From: Desulfuromonas sp. CSMB_57
GTDB lineage: Bacteria; Desulfobacterota; Desulfuromonadia; Desulfuromonadales; Syntrophotaleaceae
Direction: 5' to 3'
Assembly (NCBI RefSeq): GCF_020194955.2
Contig: NZ_JAFCIY020000022.1
Span: 124,001 to 188,000 of the forward strand
DNA: 64,000 bases
How positions within the stretch are numbered: the stretch's first letter is position 1; every line of letters starts with the position of its first letter. Below, piece after piece: positions 47,367 to 56,771 of this stretch. A program made the translations under genes and the position numbers. The notes beneath the pieces are model-generated. The model was not told where the DNA came from. It saw only the letters and a program-made list of their open reading frames with translations, and made no database searches.

Positions 47367-48236
47367 ATGCCACGCTGGGTCGATCTGCACCTGCACAGCA
47401 CCTGTTCCGATGGCCGTTTTCCACCGGCGGAAGTCATCCGTCAAGCCGCCGTCGCCGGCCTTTCCGCCGTGGCCCTGACCGATCACGACAATGTCGACGG
47501 CATCGACCAGGCCCTGGCCGCCGGCGCCGTCCTGGGGGTGGAGGTGCTGCCGGCGGTGGAATTGTCCGTGCAGTGGGAAACCTGGGAGGATATTCACATC
47601 CTCGGCTACGGCATCGATCATCACCAGCCGGCCCTGACCGCTGCTCTGGCCGAGTTTCGGGCCTTCCGCGGCGGACGTAACGAGCGCATCGTCGCCAATA
47701 TCAATGCCCGCCTGCAGGAGGAAGGGCGGGCGCCCATCGACTTCGCCGAAGTCCGGGCGCGGGCCGCCGGCACCCCCGGACGCCCCCATATCGCCCAGGT
47801 GCTCATGGAGCGGGGTTACGTCGCCGGCCAGGAACAGGCCTTCCATCAGTATCTGATCCCCTGCAACGAGCCCAAGCGGTTTTTCCCCCTGCAGGATGCC
47901 ATCGACCTGCTGCACGGCGCCGGCGGCGTGGCGGTGCTGGCCCATCCCTCCTACATCAGCGATCAGCGCGCCGAGCTGCTGCAGCTGTTCGATGCCTTTG
48001 CCGTCCTGGGGCTGGACGGCATCGAGGCCTACAACAACCGCGCCACCAATGACGACATCGACTGGCTCATCAGCCAGGCCCGCCGTCGGCGACTCATCGT
48101 CACCGGCGGTTCCGACTATCACGGCATCCCCGGCACCGAAATCGTCATCGGCGGCGGGCGCGGCAACCTGCGCATTCCCTACAGCTGTGTCGAGGAGATC
48201 CGATCCGCCCTGAAGCAAGGCTGCCGTCCTAACTGA
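47367..48236 (+). CDS. PHP-domain metal-dependent phosphoesterase (TrpH/RNase AM-like)
   Basis: 289 residues. Metal-binding motifs of the PHP fold: DLHLHSTCSDG at the start, LTDHDNVDGI, VEVLPAVELS, VLAHPSYI and the C-terminal GSDYHG. Members of this group (E. coli YciV/RNase AM) are 5'-3' exonucleases or nucleotide 3',5'-bisphosphate phosphatases; which activity applies here is not decided by sequence. Start ATG 47367 has AGGGAG at 47354-47359. Confidence 0.88.
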   Translation: MPRWVDLHLHSTCSDGRFPPAEVIRQAAVAGLSAVALTDHDNVDGIDQALAAGAVLGVEVLPAVELSVQWETWEDIHILGYGIDHHQPALTAALAEFRAFRGGRNERIVANINARLQEEGRAPIDFAEVRARAAGTPGRPHIAQVLMERGYVAGQEQAFHQYLIPCNEPKRFFPLQDAIDLLHGAGGVAVLAHPSYISDQRAELLQLFDAFAVLGLDGIEAYNNRATNDDIDWLISQARRRRLIVTGGSDYHGIPGTEIVIGGGRGNLRIPYSCVEEIRSALKQGCRPN

Positions 48237-48310
48237 TAAACAGCTGAATCTTTTTTTCATCATCCCCTTCTGATTGGAATAAAAATCCATTCCAGTCACT
48301 GTCTCGTAAA

Positions 48311-48395
48311 AAATAGCCAAATATTATAAAAAAGACTTGAATTATTTTTCTCGCAGAAGTAAAACAATAACCAAATAAATAGCCAAACATTTGGC
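48311..48395 (+). promoter_or_regulatory. aor promoter with two palindromic operator sites
   Basis: TTGAAT (48337-48342), 17 bp, TAAAAC (48360-48365). One operator, AAATAGCCAAATATTA, is at 48311-48326, its left edge 26 bp upstream of the -35. A second, AAATAGCCAAACATTTGGC, is at 48377-48395 just after the expected start site; it contains the perfect palindrome GCCAAACATTTGGC. The same motif recurs at four other promoters in this region. Confidence 0.75.
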
Positions 48396-48454
48396 TTGCC
48401 GAGGGGTGGCGACTCGTCACGCCTCAGGAATGCATTGACCCACACCCGGAAGAT

Positions 48455-48580
48455 TTGCTGAGCATCTCCGAGCCCGATTGCCTAACAGGGTGTTCCTTAT
48501 GGCAATCGGGCCGACAGGGTGGCACTGGAAACGGTGCGGCCTCCCAGGGGGAAAGGAGAAATTGGCTAACGCACTCACGA
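48455..48580 (+). ncRNA. Molybdenum/tungsten cofactor (Moco/Tuco-type) riboswitch in the aor leader
   Basis: The 3' half closely resembles the Moco RNA of moaA leaders: GCC-N2-CAGGG (48510-48519), a short hairpin GCAC/GTGC, GCCTCCC (48539-48545), GGAAAGG (48550-48556) and ATTGGCT (48561-48567), which can pair with AGCC at 48471-48474 as stem P1. A 10-bp hairpin CCCGATTGCC/GGCAATCGGG (48473-48510) occupies the 5' part, and the separate P3 arm of the E. coli RNA is absent, as described for the tungsten variant. The aor ribosome-binding site (AAGGGAG, 48580-48586) follows immediately, suggesting translational control. The 5' boundary is approximate. Confidence 0.7.
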
Positions 48581-48594
48581 AGGGAGACTGAGCA

Positions 48595-50481
48595 ATGTTG
48601 GGAGGTTACTGGCAAAAAATCGCGGTTGTGGATCTGACATCCGGCAAGGTAGACATGCTGCGGCCCAGTGAAGAAGACCTGCAAAAGTACATCGGCGGCA
48701 GCGGCCTGGGCGCCAAGTTGCTGTACGAGAATGTGCCGGCCGGCGTTGATCCGCTTGGTCCGGAGAACGTTTTGTTGCTCATGACCGGGCCTTACGTTGG
48801 CACAAAAGTTTTTAATTCCGGTCGCTTCGAGGTTGTGACCAAGAGCCCGCTGACCGGCATTTACCTGGAATCGGATTGTGGCGGCAAATGGGGCCCGGCC
48901 CTCAAGGCTTGCGGCCTGGACGGCATCATGGTCAAGGGCAAGGCTGAGAAACCGGTTTACATTCTTATCGAGGACGATGAGATCCGTATCAAGTCGGCCG
49001 CCAGCCTTTGGGGCAAGGGCTCTTTTGATACGGATCATCTGGTACGTGAGGAATTGGGTCGTGGATCGGAATGCGTTTGTATCGGCCAGGCCGGGGAACG
49101 TCTCAATAAAATGGCCGGCATCATGACGGCCGGTCGCGAAGGGCGTACCGCCGGGCGGGGCGGTTCGGGGGCGGTCATGGGCTCCAAAAACCTGAAGGCC
49201 ATCGGCGTCAAGGGCAGCAAAAAGGTGCCCATTGCCGACCAGCAGGCTTTTGATGCCCTTTGGCAGGAAATCAAGCCTCAGATGATGGAAGTCCACGATG
49301 GCCCCCTAGGTACCTATGGTACCTCTTGTGCCGTGCAGATATTCAACGACGTGGGTGACCTGCCGATTAAAAACTGGCTATGGGGCACTTGGGACAAGGC
49401 TTCCAAGGTTTCCGGACAGCATATGGCGGAAACCATCCTCAAGAAGCGCTACCACTGCGGCGGCTGCCTCATCGGTTGCGGCAGGACTGTGGAGATCCCT
49501 GCGGGGAAATACAAGATGGATATCGGCGGCGGACCGGAATATGAAACCCTGGGCATGATCGGTTCCGGTTGCCTTGTCGATGACGTCGAGGCCATCGCCA
49601 AGGCCGGCGAATATTGCAACGACTACGGCATGGACACCATTTCCGTCGGCTCTGCATTGGGGTTCCTCATGGAAGCCTGGGAACATGGCATGATCGATGC
49701 GAAAGATACCGGCGGCCTGCAAATGACCTGGGGCAACGGTGAAGCCATGGTGGAGATGGTGCGCAAAATCGGCGAGCGCGAAGATATCGGCGACACCATG
49801 GCGGAAGGAATTCTGGCCGCTGTGGATCGGGTCGGCCCCCTGAGCGCGGAATTCGCCATTCACACCAAGGGGATGGATTTCCCGGCACACGATCCTCGCG
49901 GCCGCGGCGGTCTGGCGGTGGCTTATGCCACCTCGAACCGAGGAGCCTGTCATATGCAGGCCTACAACCAGGACTTTGAGGGTGAAGGTTGCCTGCATAT
50001 TTCCGACCTTGGCTACGACGCGCCACTGCCGCCTTACACCAACGAGGGCAAGGGCAAGTTCGTTGCCGACCAGCAAAACTTCATGAGCATGTGCGATTCC
50101 CTCAAGTTGTGCAAGTTCGTGGTGTTCGGCGGCATGACCGTAGGTCCCATGACCCGCTTCCTGAACGCGGTCACCGGCTGGAATTTCACCAATGAGCAGT
50201 GGCTGGAATGCGGTGAGCGGATTTTTAACATCAAACGGCTGTTCAACAACCGGGAAGGCATCACCCGCAAGGACGACACCCTTCCGGCCCGCATTCTGAC
50301 CAGCCCGCGTCAGGGAGGGGCTGGCGACTATGTCCCTGATCTCGGCTATCAGTTGCGGGATTACTACCGTGCCCGGGGTTGGGACGAGTGGGGGATCCCC
50401 ACCCCGGAGACCTTGCAGCGCTTAGGTCTGGATGGCTACGACTATCGCCAGGGGTCTCGTACCACGGAGAACCAGCGTTGA
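48595..50481 (+). CDS. aor: Tungsten-containing aldehyde:ferredoxin oxidoreductase
   Basis: 628 residues. Oxidises aldehydes (here probably acetaldehyde) to carboxylic acids with ferredoxin as acceptor, using a tungsto-bispterin cofactor and one 4Fe-4S cluster. Cluster ligands Cys288, Cys291 and Cys295 lie in HCGGCLIGCGR, the fourth probably Cys506 in DSLKLC. The N-terminus MLGGYWQKIAVVDLTSGKV and EGRTAGRGGSGAVMGSKNLKAI (pterin domain) are AOR signatures. It is led by a cofactor-type riboswitch and followed by ThiS- and ThiF-like genes, consistent with cofactor maturation. Confidence 0.93.
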   Translation: MLGGYWQKIAVVDLTSGKVDMLRPSEEDLQKYIGGSGLGAKLLYENVPAGVDPLGPENVLLLMTGPYVGTKVFNSGRFEVVTKSPLTGIYLESDCGGKWGPALKACGLDGIMVKGKAEKPVYILIEDDEIRIKSAASLWGKGSFDTDHLVREELGRGSECVCIGQAGERLNKMAGIMTAGREGRTAGRGGSGAVMGSKNLKAIGVKGSKKVPIADQQAFDALWQEIKPQMMEVHDGPLGTYGTSCAVQIFNDVGDLPIKNWLWGTWDKASKVSGQHMAETILKKRYHCGGCLIGCGRTVEIPAGKYKMDIGGGPEYETLGMIGSGCLVDDVEAIAKAGEYCNDYGMDTISVGSALGFLMEAWEHGMIDAKDTGGLQMTWGNGEAMVEMVRKIGEREDIGDTMAEGILAAVDRVGPLSAEFAIHTKGMDFPAHDPRGRGGLAVAYATSNRGACHMQAYNQDFEGEGCLHISDLGYDAPLPPYTNEGKGKFVADQQNFMSMCDSLKLCKFVVFGGMTVGPMTRFLNAVTGWNFTNEQWLECGERIFNIKRLFNNREGITRKDDTLPARILTSPRQGGAGDYVPDLGYQLRDYYRARGWDEWGIPTPETLQRLGLDGYDYRQGSRTTENQR

Positions 50482-50541: not shown

Positions 50542-50649
50542 AACCCCGTCCAGAGGCCGGCTTGCGTTGCCCCGGGGATTATCGGGTCGGTTACCGAAAT
50601 GACGCCTTGGAATGACAAGCAAGAAGCAAAGTATTCAAGGAGACCGATC

Positions 50650-50853
50650 ATGTCGGTGGTTATTGTTGATACTGAAGGCATTCCGGAAAAAGCCAGTAAA
50701 ACAGTGGCGCAGTTGCTCGAAGAGCAGGGTCTGGAAGCGGCCTTTGTCATGGTCCGAGTGAACGGCGAGGTGGTTCGCAGAGAGGAATATTCTACCTGCA
50801 AGGTATGCCGGGGGGCGCTGGTCAAGGCCTATCCCTTTGTGGGCGGCGGCTGA
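50650..50853 (+). CDS. ThiS/MoaD-like sulfur-carrier protein
   Basis: 67 residues, ubiquitin-like. It ends VGGG, and the C-terminal Gly-Gly is the site that is adenylated and thiocarboxylated in this family. Central FVMVRVNGEVVRREEY matches the beta-strand region of MoaD/ThiS. ATG 50650 is preceded by AAGGAGA. Placed between aor and an E1-like gene, it is probably the sulfur donor for the tungsten pterin cofactor of AOR rather than for thiamine; that is inference. It has an unusual Cys pair (CKVC). Confidence 0.75.
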   Translation: MSVVIVDTEGIPEKASKTVAQLLEEQGLEAAFVMVRVNGEVVRREEYSTCKVCRGALVKAYPFVGGG

Positions 50854-50898
50854 ACAGGAGTCTGATGGCCGGCGTTCACGGTGCAAGGAGTTTTGAAC

Positions 50899-51516
50899 GT
50901 GCAGCAAGAGGAATTTTTCGCACGCCACGATCCAGAGTTGTTGCCCCGATTGCGGCAGGCCCGCATCGGCATTGCCGGCGCCGGCGGCTTGGGCTCCAAT
51001 GTCGCCTGTTGTCTGGCGCGGGCCGGCGTAGGGCAGCTGATATTCGCCGATTTCGATGTCGTTGAGCCTTCCAACCTCAACCGGCAGCAATACTTTTTAG
51101 ATCAAATCGGACAAGCCAAGGTCGACGCACTTCAGGAAAATTTGCGGCGCATCAATCCTTTCAGCATTTATGAAGCGCACCGCGTGCGCCTTGATGCGGA
51201 AAATATCCCGCAGCTGTTCGAGGAGGTCGACATCATGGTGGAGGCCTTCGACAGCGCCGCCATGAAGGCGGTGCTGGTCGATGCCTGGGTAGCACGCTGG
51301 CCGCAACGCCCGATCATTGTCGGCAGCGGCATGGGCGGATTCGGGGGCAACAACGACATTCGTTGCCATAGGTTGTTCGGGCAGGTTTATCTGTGCGGTG
51401 ATGGTCGCACTGACTGTGACGACCGACTGCCAATGGCGCCCCGGGTAACAATTGTGGCGGCCATGCAGGCCAACCTGGTGCTTGAGTTGCTGGCCGGGAA
51501 ATCTTCCATAAGTTGA
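50899..51516 (+). CDS. ThiF/MoeB-like adenylyltransferase, short family
   Basis: 205 residues, about the length of the small ThiF family 2, shorter than MoeB. Nucleotide-binding GIAGAGGLGSNVACCLARAGVG, then DFDVVEPSNLNRQQYF with the conserved Asp/Asn/Arg, and EAFDSAAMK. The CxxC zinc pairs of MoeB are absent. GTG 50899 is chosen because AAGGAG at 50885-50890 has correct spacing; an in-frame GTG 50881 would add six residues. It should activate the preceding sulfur carrier. An intrinsic terminator follows. Confidence 0.8.
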   Translation: MQQEEFFARHDPELLPRLRQARIGIAGAGGLGSNVACCLARAGVGQLIFADFDVVEPSNLNRQQYFLDQIGQAKVDALQENLRRINPFSIYEAHRVRLDAENIPQLFEEVDIMVEAFDSAAMKAVLVDAWVARWPQRPIIVGSGMGGFGGNNDIRCHRLFGQVYLCGDGRTDCDDRLPMAPRVTIVAAMQANLVLELLAGKSSIS

Positions 51517-51799: not shown

Positions 51800-51972
51800 A
51801 GGGACCACACAGCGATTTTTTTTGGGAATCCAAACAACTTAAAATTCAATTATTTGTACCTCATAGCCGGGCTTAACACGGCCATGCATGAATCATCCCT
51901 GGTTGTGTTGCCGCAGCTATCTTGCATAGCGCGGGAAGCAAACAACCAATACCTGGTGAAAGGAGATTGAAA

Positions 51973-53469
51973 ATGGCGAACACACTGTATCATTTTATCA
52001 ACGGGCTCCGAGTTGAAGGGCGTAGTGAGCGCTTTGGGGAGGTTGTTGATCCGGCAACCGGACAGAGCATCGCTCGGGTTCCTCTTGCTTCGGCGAAGGA
52101 AACCGCCAGTGCGGTCGAGGCCGCCGCCGCGGCCTTCCCTTCCTGGCGGGATACGCCGCCCATGCGGCGGGCCCGGGTGCTTTTTCGATTTATTGAACTG
52201 CTGAATGAAAATATGAACGAGTTGGCCCAATTGATTACGGCCGAGCATGGAAAGGTTTTGAATGACGCAATCGGTGATGTCACGCGCGGCATGGAAATCG
52301 TCGAATTTGCCTGTGGCGCACCCCATTTGCTCAAAGGACATTTTTCGGAAAATGTGGGAACCGATGTCGATAGCCATTCCATCAGACAACCGCTAGGCGT
52401 GTGCGTGGGCATCACTCCATTTAACTTTCCCGCCATGGTGCCCATGTGGATGTTCCCCTTGGCGATAGTTTGCGGCAATACTTTTATCCTAAAACCGTCC
52501 GAAAAAGTACCATCCACGGCCTTGCGCTTGGCGGAACTGATGCACCAGGCCGGTTTACCGGCGGGGGTTCTGAATGTTGTGAATGGCGATCAGGAAGCGG
52601 TGTGTACGCTTCTTGAGAACCCGGGAGTGGCGGCGGTCAGTTTTGTCGGCTCCACTCCGGTCGCGGAGCGAATCTACCGTACAGCGACCAGCAAAAACAA
52701 GCGGGCGCAAGCCCTAGGTGGAGCCAAAAACCACATGGTGATCATGCCGGACGCGGATCTCGACGGTGCCGTTAATGCGCTCATGGGGGCGGCCTACGGG
52801 GCTGCGGGAGAACGCTGCATGGCGATTTCCGTAGCCGTTGCCGTGGGCGATAAAACCGCGGATGCATTGATCGAGCGTTTGATGCCCAGAGTCAGAGCTA
52901 TCAAGGTCGGCCCTGGTACCGATTCCGAGGTGGAAATGGGGCCGTTGATCACTGGCGAACATCTGGCCAGGGTCAAGGATTATGTTGCTTGTGGCGTGGA
53001 AGAGGGAGCGAAATTGTTGGTGGACGGTCGTGATGTGAAACCTGCGGAGTCGGCAGGAGGGTTTTTCTTGGGAGGTTCCCTGTTCGATCGCGTTGCGCCG
53101 ACCATGCGGATCTATCGGGAAGAAATTTTCGGGCCGGTACTTTGCGTGGTGCGGGCCCCCAATTTCGCTTCCGCCCTGGAGTTGATCAATGCCCATGAGT
53201 TTGGCAATGGATCGTCGATTTTTACCCGGGACGGCGACACGGCCCGTGCCTTCAGCTCTCAGGTGCAGGCCGGCATGGTCGGCATCAACGTGCCGATTCC
53301 CGTGCCCATGTCCTACCATAGCTTTGGCGGGTGGAAACGCTCATTGTTCGGGGATGTGCACATGCATGGGCCGGAGGGAATCAGGTTCTATACCAAACTG
53401 AAAACCATAACTTCCCGCTGGCCAACCGGCCTTCGAAATGGGGCCGACTTCCATATGCCGACTCTCTAG
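51973..53469 (+). CDS. Aldehyde dehydrogenase 1, MmsA-type (CoA-acylating)
   Basis: 498 residues. Closest in pattern to methylmalonate-semialdehyde dehydrogenase: GVCVGITPFNFPAMVPMWMFP, FILKPSEKVPSTA, SFVGSTPVAERIY, GAKNHMVIMPDAD and catalytic Cys in AAYGAAGERCMAIS. This family releases acyl-CoA, so acetaldehyde + CoA + NAD+ to acetyl-CoA is a sensible role given the alcohol dehydrogenases nearby; the natural substrate is inferred. GAAAGGAGA precedes ATG 51973. Expression appears controlled by the shared operator and a leader terminator. Confidence 0.88.
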   Translation: MANTLYHFINGLRVEGRSERFGEVVDPATGQSIARVPLASAKETASAVEAAAAAFPSWRDTPPMRRARVLFRFIELLNENMNELAQLITAEHGKVLNDAIGDVTRGMEIVEFACGAPHLLKGHFSENVGTDVDSHSIRQPLGVCVGITPFNFPAMVPMWMFPLAIVCGNTFILKPSEKVPSTALRLAELMHQAGLPAGVLNVVNGDQEAVCTLLENPGVAAVSFVGSTPVAERIYRTATSKNKRAQALGGAKNHMVIMPDADLDGAVNALMGAAYGAAGERCMAISVAVAVGDKTADALIERLMPRVRAIKVGPGTDSEVEMGPLITGEHLARVKDYVACGVEEGAKLLVDGRDVKPAESAGGFFLGGSLFDRVAPTMRIYREEIFGPVLCVVRAPNFASALELINAHEFGNGSSIFTRDGDTARAFSSQVQAGMVGINVPIPVPMSYHSFGGWKRSLFGDVHMHGPEGIRFYTKLKTITSRWPTGLRNGADFHMPTL

Positions 53470-55434: not shown

Positions 55435-55543
55435 ATTAATTATTATATTGTAAGCGGAAAAGTTTTGAATTTTTAAGCCTTGAGGGAGGAGCAGTATTTG
55501 CCGAGGAAAGGAGGACTTAACCGGGTAAGACAAGGGTGGTAAA

Positions 55544-55586
55544 TGGCGTCAACGCCACCGGGTCTGGTTTGGGACCAGAAGCCCGG
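55544..55586 (+). promoter_or_regulatory. Two stacked hairpins in the alcohol dehydrogenase 1 leader
   Basis: TGGCG-TCAA-CGCCA (55544-55557) is followed directly by a longer stem, CCGGG+TCTGGT pairing with ACCAGA+CCCGG (55558-55586). They lie 33 bases before the ATG. No known RNA class was recognised. Confidence 0.55.
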
Positions 55587-55619
55587 ATTAAATCACAACC
55601 TGTGTATGAGGAGGAAACA

Positions 55620-56771
55620 ATGGCTGACTTTTTGTGTCCCGCAGTAAATTTCATCGGTAAGGGTACGGTCGCTGAAACAGGTCCCCGTGCTGCCATGTTC
55701 GGCACTAAAGCCTTGATTGTCTGTGACGGATTCCTGGCCAAACTCGAGGGTGGGCCGGTGGCCAAGGTCAAGGATTCCCTGCAGCAGGCAGGGGTCAAGT
55801 TTGCGGTGTATGACGGTGTCGAGCCGAACCCCAAAGACACGAATGTTGCGGACGGCCTTAAGGTCTATCAGAAGGAAGGCTGCGATCTCATCGTCACTGT
55901 CGGCGGCGGGAGTTCCCACGACTGCGGTAAGGGCATCGGCATCGCGGCGACCCATGATGGCGATCTGTATGAAGATTACGCAGGCATCGAAATGCTGACC
56001 AACGAACTGCCGCCAATCATCGCCGTCAACACCACCGCCGGCACGGCCAGTGAAGTGACCCGCCATTGCGTCATCACCAACACCAAGAAAAAAGTCAAGT
56101 TTGTTATCGTCAGCTGGCGGAACCTGCCCAAAGTATCCATTAACGACCCGGAGCTGATGGTTGCCAAACCGGCTGGCCTGACCGCAGCCACGGGCATGGA
56201 TGCCCTGACTCACGCCGTGGAGTGCTACGTAACCAAGGCGCCCAACCATGTCACCGACGCCGTGGCGATTCATGCCATCAAACTGATCGGCAAGTACCTC
56301 CGTCGTGCTGTTGCCAATGGCGAAGATATTGAGGCCCGCGAGGGCATGGCTTACGGTTCGTTGCTGGCCGGTATGGCTTTTAACAATGCCGGACTTGGCT
56401 ATGTGCATGCCATGGCCCACCAGTTGGGCGGCCTGCTGGATATGCCTCACGGTATCGCCAACGCCGTTCTGCTGCCGCACATCGAGCGTTTCAACCTGAT
56501 GGTCAACCCCGAGAAGTTCGCCGATATTGCGGTTGCCTTGGGCGAAAATATTGAAGGGCTCGGCAAAATGGAAGCTGCCGAAAAAGCTATCGACGCCATC
56601 GTACGCCTTTCCAAAGATGTTGGTATTCCTCAGCACCTGGCCGACTTGGGCGTAAAGGAATCGGATATCGAACCCATGGCGAAACTGGCCATGCAGGACG
56701 GCAACGCCGGCACCAACCCGCGTATTGGCAAGGTCGAAGATATTATTCAGTTGTTCAAGAGCGCCATGTAA
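55620..56771 (+). CDS. Iron-containing alcohol dehydrogenase 1
   Basis: 383 residues, group III (iron) dehydrogenase. NAD-binding VTVGGGSSHDCGKGIGI and AVNTTAGTASEVTRHCVITN; metal ligands in GMDALTHAVECY and HAMAHQLGGLLDMPHG. Similar enzymes oxidise ethanol or 1,3-propanediol. GAGGAGGAAACA precedes ATG 55620. It has its own promoter with operator sites and a strong terminator, so it is a single-gene unit. Substrate (probably ethanol/acetaldehyde) is inferred from context. Confidence 0.92.
   Translation: MADFLCPAVNFIGKGTVAETGPRAAMFGTKALIVCDGFLAKLEGGPVAKVKDSLQQAGVKFAVYDGVEPNPKDTNVADGLKVYQKEGCDLIVTVGGGSSHDCGKGIGIAATHDGDLYEDYAGIEMLTNELPPIIAVNTTAGTASEVTRHCVITNTKKKVKFVIVSWRNLPKVSINDPELMVAKPAGLTAATGMDALTHAVECYVTKAPNHVTDAVAIHAIKLIGKYLRRAVANGEDIEAREGMAYGSLLAGMAFNNAGLGYVHAMAHQLGGLLDMPHGIANAVLLPHIERFNLMVNPEKFADIAVALGENIEGLGKMEAAEKAIDAIVRLSKDVGIPQHLADLGVKESDIEPMAKLAMQDGNAGTNPRIGKVEDIIQLFKSAM

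Follow-up and report, generated by a model that had tools for sequence, protein, structure and literature searches.

Does the leader of a gene for an aldehyde:ferredoxin oxidoreductase (AOR) in Desulfuromonas sp. CSMB_57 carry a cofactor-sensing RNA, and, if so, in which direction would that RNA switch the gene? The locus lies in the 64,000-nucleotide stretch of DNA analysed here, referred to as the window, and on balance we lean towards reading the aor leader as a P3-less (tungsten-type) riboswitch of the Moco family that acts as a translational ON switch.

A cmscan search with Rfam places RF01055 (Moco RNA, the molybdenum/tungsten riboswitch aptamer) at 48454–48574 of the plus strand with 77.5 bits (gathering score 36 bits; E 7.7e-19 when 1 kb is searched and 4.9e-17 when the whole window is), and the alignment runs end to end, covering model positions 1–135 of 135; besides this, the single match above gathering score in the whole window is a tRNA. 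The initial annotation had proposed such a match and put the element at 48455–48580; the score clears the threshold by a wide margin, and the limits were correct to a few bases. In the model structure the P1 5' strand is AUCUCC (48464–48469), followed by the P2 hairpin (48472–48511), whose arms at 48472–48482 and 48501–48511 form a perfect 11-bp helix (inverted repeat, 100%) and which contains CCUAA...UAUGG, identified by eye as the usual tetraloop receptor and forming a receptor-like bulge. The cmscan alignment continues with a P4 hairpin (48517–48542) with a GAAA loop (48528–48531), the conserved CCUCCC (48540–48545), which forms the end of P4 and P5, and the conserved GGAAAGGAG (48550–48558), which forms the P5 3' strand and the P1 3' strand. 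This core is intact, and the Moco RNA blocks that had been recognized from the letters are present in the expected order and at the expected coordinates. The P3 columns are deleted in the alignment, and the P3 arm reported as missing is indeed replaced by a linker of only 5 nt (48512–48516) between the P2 3' arm and P4. The RNA at 48440–48620 is also more stably folded than its dinucleotide-shuffled versions (z -2.78; 1 in 200 did as well). With its score, its P1, P2 and P4 elements with GAAA loop and receptor, its core, and a molybdenum/tungsten-related gene downstream, the window RNA is a genuine member of the RF01055 family.

The gene that follows, aor (48595–50481, plus strand), encodes a probable tungsten enzyme of the AFOR family, as judged from its matches to PF02730 and PF01314 and from its best PDB sequence match, 1aor (430 bits), in keeping with the AOR annotated earlier; its closest named record in AOR sequence comparison is from a Desulfuromonadaceae metagenome genome (93%). 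The likely Shine-Dalgarno AAGGGAGA (48580–48587, plus strand) lies 8 nt before the start codon at 48595 and starts 6 nt past the last base of the RF01055 model, close to the position directly after the aptamer that it had been assigned. Further downstream on the plus strand are genes for a ThiS/MoaD-like sulfur carrier (50599–50853; PF02597, with TIGR01683 barely above cut-off) and a ThiF/MoeB-like adenylyltransferase (50881–51516; PF00899, with NF006395 and TIGR02354 above cut-off); the NCBIfam models passing their cut-offs for these two genes are ThiS and ThiF ones. A methylmalonate-semialdehyde-type aldehyde dehydrogenase (51967–53469; TIGR01722 above cut-off) and an iron-containing alcohol dehydrogenase (55536–56771) are encoded near the aor operon.

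No terminator-like site was found on the plus strand in 48230–48600, nor with a second script in the leader, so that translational control, as initially proposed with no direction of switching given, is the natural reading. No sigma-70-type promoter was found in 48230–48600. Upstream of the riboswitch, the palindrome AGCCAAACATTTGGCT (48381–48396), previously put forward as an operator giving a substrate layer of control and retained here as a candidate, is the sole exact copy in the genome, where three other sites match it with two mismatches; a related half-site is present at 48315–48325. The bases of the palindrome also score as a minus-strand terminator-like site (1 found, against 0.6 expected by chance). 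At 48308–48391 an AT-rich motif built around (A)GCCAAA recurs in three related copies, and AGCCAAA elements also precede the orthologous leaders of five relatives out of six, the sixth being L075, whose upstream sequence falls outside the comparison.

The genome holds three RF01055 matches, each preceding an AOR-type gene, and all three lack P3, as in the type designated Tuco/Wco. Tungsten-cofactor and tungstate-transport genes, the other mark of that type, are present as four AFOR_N genes, of which one lacks the RNA, and two TupA-like genes that are 57% identical to the TupA of a relative, a reference that itself scores 229.5 with an NCBIfam cut-off of 400; a third match is weaker. The RNA precedes the orthologous aor in six further genomes of the family, and 58 of 98 genomes across the order have a match over cut-off. 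The order-wide set comprises 126 matches over cut-off, three below the gathering score being excluded, and AOR genes are downstream of 63 (59 by phmmer and four, truncated by contig ends, by the AOR N-terminus). The ORFs of the other 63 loci fall into clusters that are TupA-like (tungstate-binding protein genes, following 25 of the 126 copies), MoeA (8), porin-like (7), TonB-dependent receptor (3), acetylating acetaldehyde dehydrogenase (3, with a fourth similar leader) and permease-like (3), together with smaller, single or mixed ones; one locus may have ORFs in more than one cluster, and the representatives are named by NCBIfam models, mostly below whole-protein cut-offs and some from truncated sequences.

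Several of these loci have features of their own. The RNAs before TonB-dependent receptor genes (L032, L036 and L086) are P3-less Moco-family members whose P2 sequence is unusual and whose terminator-like hairpin is strong, and an outer-membrane uptake route under tungsten-cofactor control is possible there. Porin-like genes follow the RNA at L012, L026, L030, L049, L060, L066 and L098, one representative matching the model of the selenite/tellurite porin ExtI weakly and below cut-off, and genomes G025 and G070 have tandem pairs of the RNA before porin-like genes. The tupA-type leader L105 (G083:C22:10275-10560, minus strand) has an insertion of about 165 nt at the place of P3 in the aptamer.

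Of 297 genomes searched across the phylum, 62 hold a match over cut-off, some of the order included. The set outside the order comprises 108 loci, leaving out three below the gathering score and G201:C114, which is over it. Scored against a set of reference proteins, the best downstream matches of these loci are MoaA (20), porin (17), TupA (15), MoeA (7), permease-like (6), AOR (3), aldehyde dehydrogenase (3) and TonB receptor (1), with none at 36. No P3 was seen on reading the 126 aptamer sequences of the order, and P3 is absent among the listed sequences of Desulfobacterota copies outside it. By script, the gap between P2 and P4 is at most 12 nt in 195 of the 207 measurable aptamers, from 234 in the two sets together; 27 were unmeasured, and 12 gave larger values that, for those whose sequences were read, looked like errors of measurement. 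The absence of P3 is invariant among the sequences read, so tungsten and lineage are inseparable as its cause in these data.

The leaders of AOR genes and those of other genes differ in what follows the aptamer. In the 150 nt that follow the aptamer, 37 of 62 non-AOR loci and none of 62 AOR loci have a hairpin followed by a U-run (p 6e-15), L097, which has no downstream DNA, and one AOR locus with less than 150 nt being excluded. In a looser test, 32 of 62 non-AOR and 0 of 62 AOR loci have a hairpin one arm of which, of CTTTCC type, can pair with GGAAAGGAG of the aptamer; such an antiterminator/terminator arrangement would turn the gene OFF when ligand binds. The AOR start codon is 19–40 nt past the end of the RF01055 model in all 63 AOR loci, and the median distance is 85 in the 41 other genes with a placed start.

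The Shine-Dalgarno sequences differ as well. Of the 63 AOR loci with the RNA, 49 have GGGAG before the start, compared with three of 40 genes of other kinds behind the riboswitch (the count covers 41 of the 63 non-AOR loci, reduced to 40 by dropping L026, with its misplaced start) and with five of the 23 AOR genes that lack the RNA (p 6e-6; 4/18 when unclear starts are removed). Loci in one group share descent, so these large-set p-values do not represent independent events; among 21 representatives GGGAG is present in 13 (p 0.02 against the 4 of 18 unreduced AOR controls and p 1e-5 against the other riboswitch genes). In the AOR type of the window, GGGAG is kept in seven of seven genes with the RNA, and two orthologues of the window AOR, L245 (81%) and L246 (80%), have neither a cmscan RF01055 match nor GGGAG before the start and can serve as natural controls for the role of the Shine-Dalgarno. 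GGGAG is present at L250, a distant AOR (48%) without the RNA; one AOR group is mostly without it (e.g. L117, L112, L124 and L037), and it is found in one of three AOR-linked copies outside the order (L170, and not L156 or L196).

GGGAG and the CUCCC in the conserved core are complementary, and the match often lengthens to CUCCCUUU:AAAGGGAG; of the 63 AOR loci, 44 can pair core and Shine-Dalgarno over 6 or more contiguous bp and 18 over 8 or more. When control Shine-Dalgarnos are combined with every one of these aptamers, 27% of the combinations reach 6 bp. At the window the CUCCC:GGGAG pairing is 5 contiguous bp only. Co-variation of the core loop with the Shine-Dalgarno gives p 0.0004 with 58 loci and less than 1 in 10,000 with 63, but p 0.15 with the 21 representatives, and is therefore not used as independent proof. 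The P1 5' strand was also considered as a general Shine-Dalgarno partner and was rejected, swapped pairs being equally good (p 0.85).

Partition functions, computed with neither tertiary contacts nor ligand, bear on the direction of the switch. Over the 63 AOR loci the mean unpaired probability of the Shine-Dalgarno is 0.22 in the free fold and 0.38 with the aptamer forced; it is higher with the aptamer forced in 42 of 63, rising by more than 0.2 in 21 and falling by more than 0.2 in two. For the window the change is from 0.29 to 0.40, and in the free fold the main partner of the Shine-Dalgarno, from the pair probabilities, is UCUCC of the P1 5' strand (48465–48469). The aptamer model has the core bases engaged in P4 and P5 and the P1 5' strand engaged with GGAG; either could pair with the Shine-Dalgarno only at the expense of the bound fold.

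In the mechanism that we propose, the P1 5' strand (UCUCC), the CCUCCC or both would pair with the GGGAG of the Shine-Dalgarno when the cofactor is absent, and AOR would be little translated. Binding of the cofactor would keep these strands in P1, P4 and P5 and free the Shine-Dalgarno, and AOR would be made, perhaps together with the downstream sulfur-carrier and adenylyltransferase proteins. We infer both the ON direction and the pairing in the cell, and favour a translational ON switch for the AOR leaders as a class; the change at the window is small, so the same reading is held less firmly for the window locus, which would be an example from the weak end of this second platform. Some genomes (e.g. 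G005, G007 and G008) have AOR-linked and other copies together, and we give an even chance to the broader proposal that one P3-less aptamer is wired oppositely in the same bacteria, with terminators turning tungsten acquisition and cofactor synthesis OFF and the AOR leaders turning ON. The Shine-Dalgarno of AOR genes would then have evolved to pair with the aptamer core, and one cofactor level would shut supply and open use.

The leaders of acetylating acetaldehyde dehydrogenase-like genes (L043, L053, L069 and L081, with L069 assigned by its first codons) have a variant aptamer in which CUCUGA takes the place of CUCCGA. Their hairpin has a long T-run, and the P1 3' strand seems to form part of its 5' arm. 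These leaders suggested a swapping of isozymes, in which a tungsten-free aldehyde dehydrogenase is held OFF by the tungsten cofactor, but the apparent use of the P1 3' strand in the hairpin would mean ON, and these leaders might instead be ON by antitermination.

The AOR leaders could also work in the opposite direction, with the bound aptamer hiding the Shine-Dalgarno, for example in a pseudoknot between loop L5 and the Shine-Dalgarno. The sole experimentally tested member, that of E. coli moaA, is OFF in the available text of its description (PMC2408646), and the complementarity of CCUCCC and the loop to the Shine-Dalgarno noted above would allow such a pseudoknot, which is invisible to the folding used. 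However, the E. coli Shine-Dalgarno is within P1 and that of the window starts about 20 nt past the P1 core strand (48555–48558), and the complementary bases are already paired in P4/P5 in the model, where pairing with the Shine-Dalgarno would compete with the bound fold; we regard an OFF switch as unlikely here, if the strongest of the alternatives. We consider it considerably less credible still that the aptamer is a degenerate, non-regulatory relic and that aor is controlled by transcription alone, for example through the upstream palindrome. The orthologues L245 and L246, with no upstream cmscan match, and the fourth AFOR_N gene of the genome, with no RNA, would fit a relic, but the match is full-length, at 77.5 bits, with P2, P4 and the core intact, and six other genomes of the family have the RNA ahead of their orthologous gene, which argues against one.

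The identity of the ligand is a separate question. Gene associations, and the correlation described in 2008, point to the tungsten cofactor. Alternatively, the ligand may be the molybdenum form or both forms, with P3 loss marking a lineage and not a metal: P3 is lacking from all Desulfobacterota copies listed, whatever the type of gene, and MoaA and MoeA, which either cofactor requires, are common among the targets. The metal-preferring targets, AOR and the TupA-like proteins, nevertheless point to tungsten, as does the tracking of tungsten-cofactor genes by P3-less copies in 17 of 19 organisms (PMC2408646, as far as its text is available), and we find this alternative rather improbable.

If the ON reading is true, cofactor supply and cofactor use are controlled oppositely by one RNA fold, and this would account for how such bacteria keep from producing tungsten enzymes for which they have no cofactor. 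The many AOR-linked copies, with their short, terminator-free leaders, would provide a compact reporter system for tungsten-cofactor sensing.

The comparison with known systems rests on the accessible portions of the published accounts. Regulski et al. (2008) reported that 58 of 176 copies lack P3 and that 17 of 19 organisms with such copies carry genes indicative of the tungsten cofactor; deletion of P3 from the E. coli RNA abolished regulation, a direct cofactor binding test was described as impractical, and tungsten specificity was given as a correlation (PMC2408646). The window RNA is alike to this P3-lacking Tuco/Wco type in its full-length aptamer, its lack of P3 and its tungsten-related downstream gene, the aptamer being identical in kind. 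The E. coli moaA riboswitch belongs to the same aptamer family, and translational control was proposed for it in 2008 (PMC2408646), but it has P3, its ribosome-binding site is within P1 and it is OFF, whereas the window RNA has no P3 and its Shine-Dalgarno is beyond P1. Neither established platform fits the window: the E. coli type requires the Shine-Dalgarno in P1, and the P1 core 3' strand is at 48555–48558 with the Shine-Dalgarno at 48580–48587, and the terminator-type OFF platform requires an intrinsic terminator ahead of the gene, for which no plus-strand site was found in 48230–48600. The platforms given in the accessible part of PMC2408646 are a translation-type OFF switch and a terminator type, with no ON switch described there and 'aldehyde' occurring once, in a reference title. 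As far as their text is accessible, a 2025 paper reports that transcription terminates at the E. coli Moco riboswitch (PMC12121620) and a 2022 review lists tandem Wco riboswitches before other genes (PMC9481103), and no description of an AOR-linked or ON-type platform of the RF01055 class was found in the accessible portions of the open-access literature searched. With the terminator-type copies before tup, moe and porin genes of the same order, the AOR leaders share the P3-less aptamer but not the hairpin, and it is this wiring of the expression platform that is added here to the known RF01055 class.
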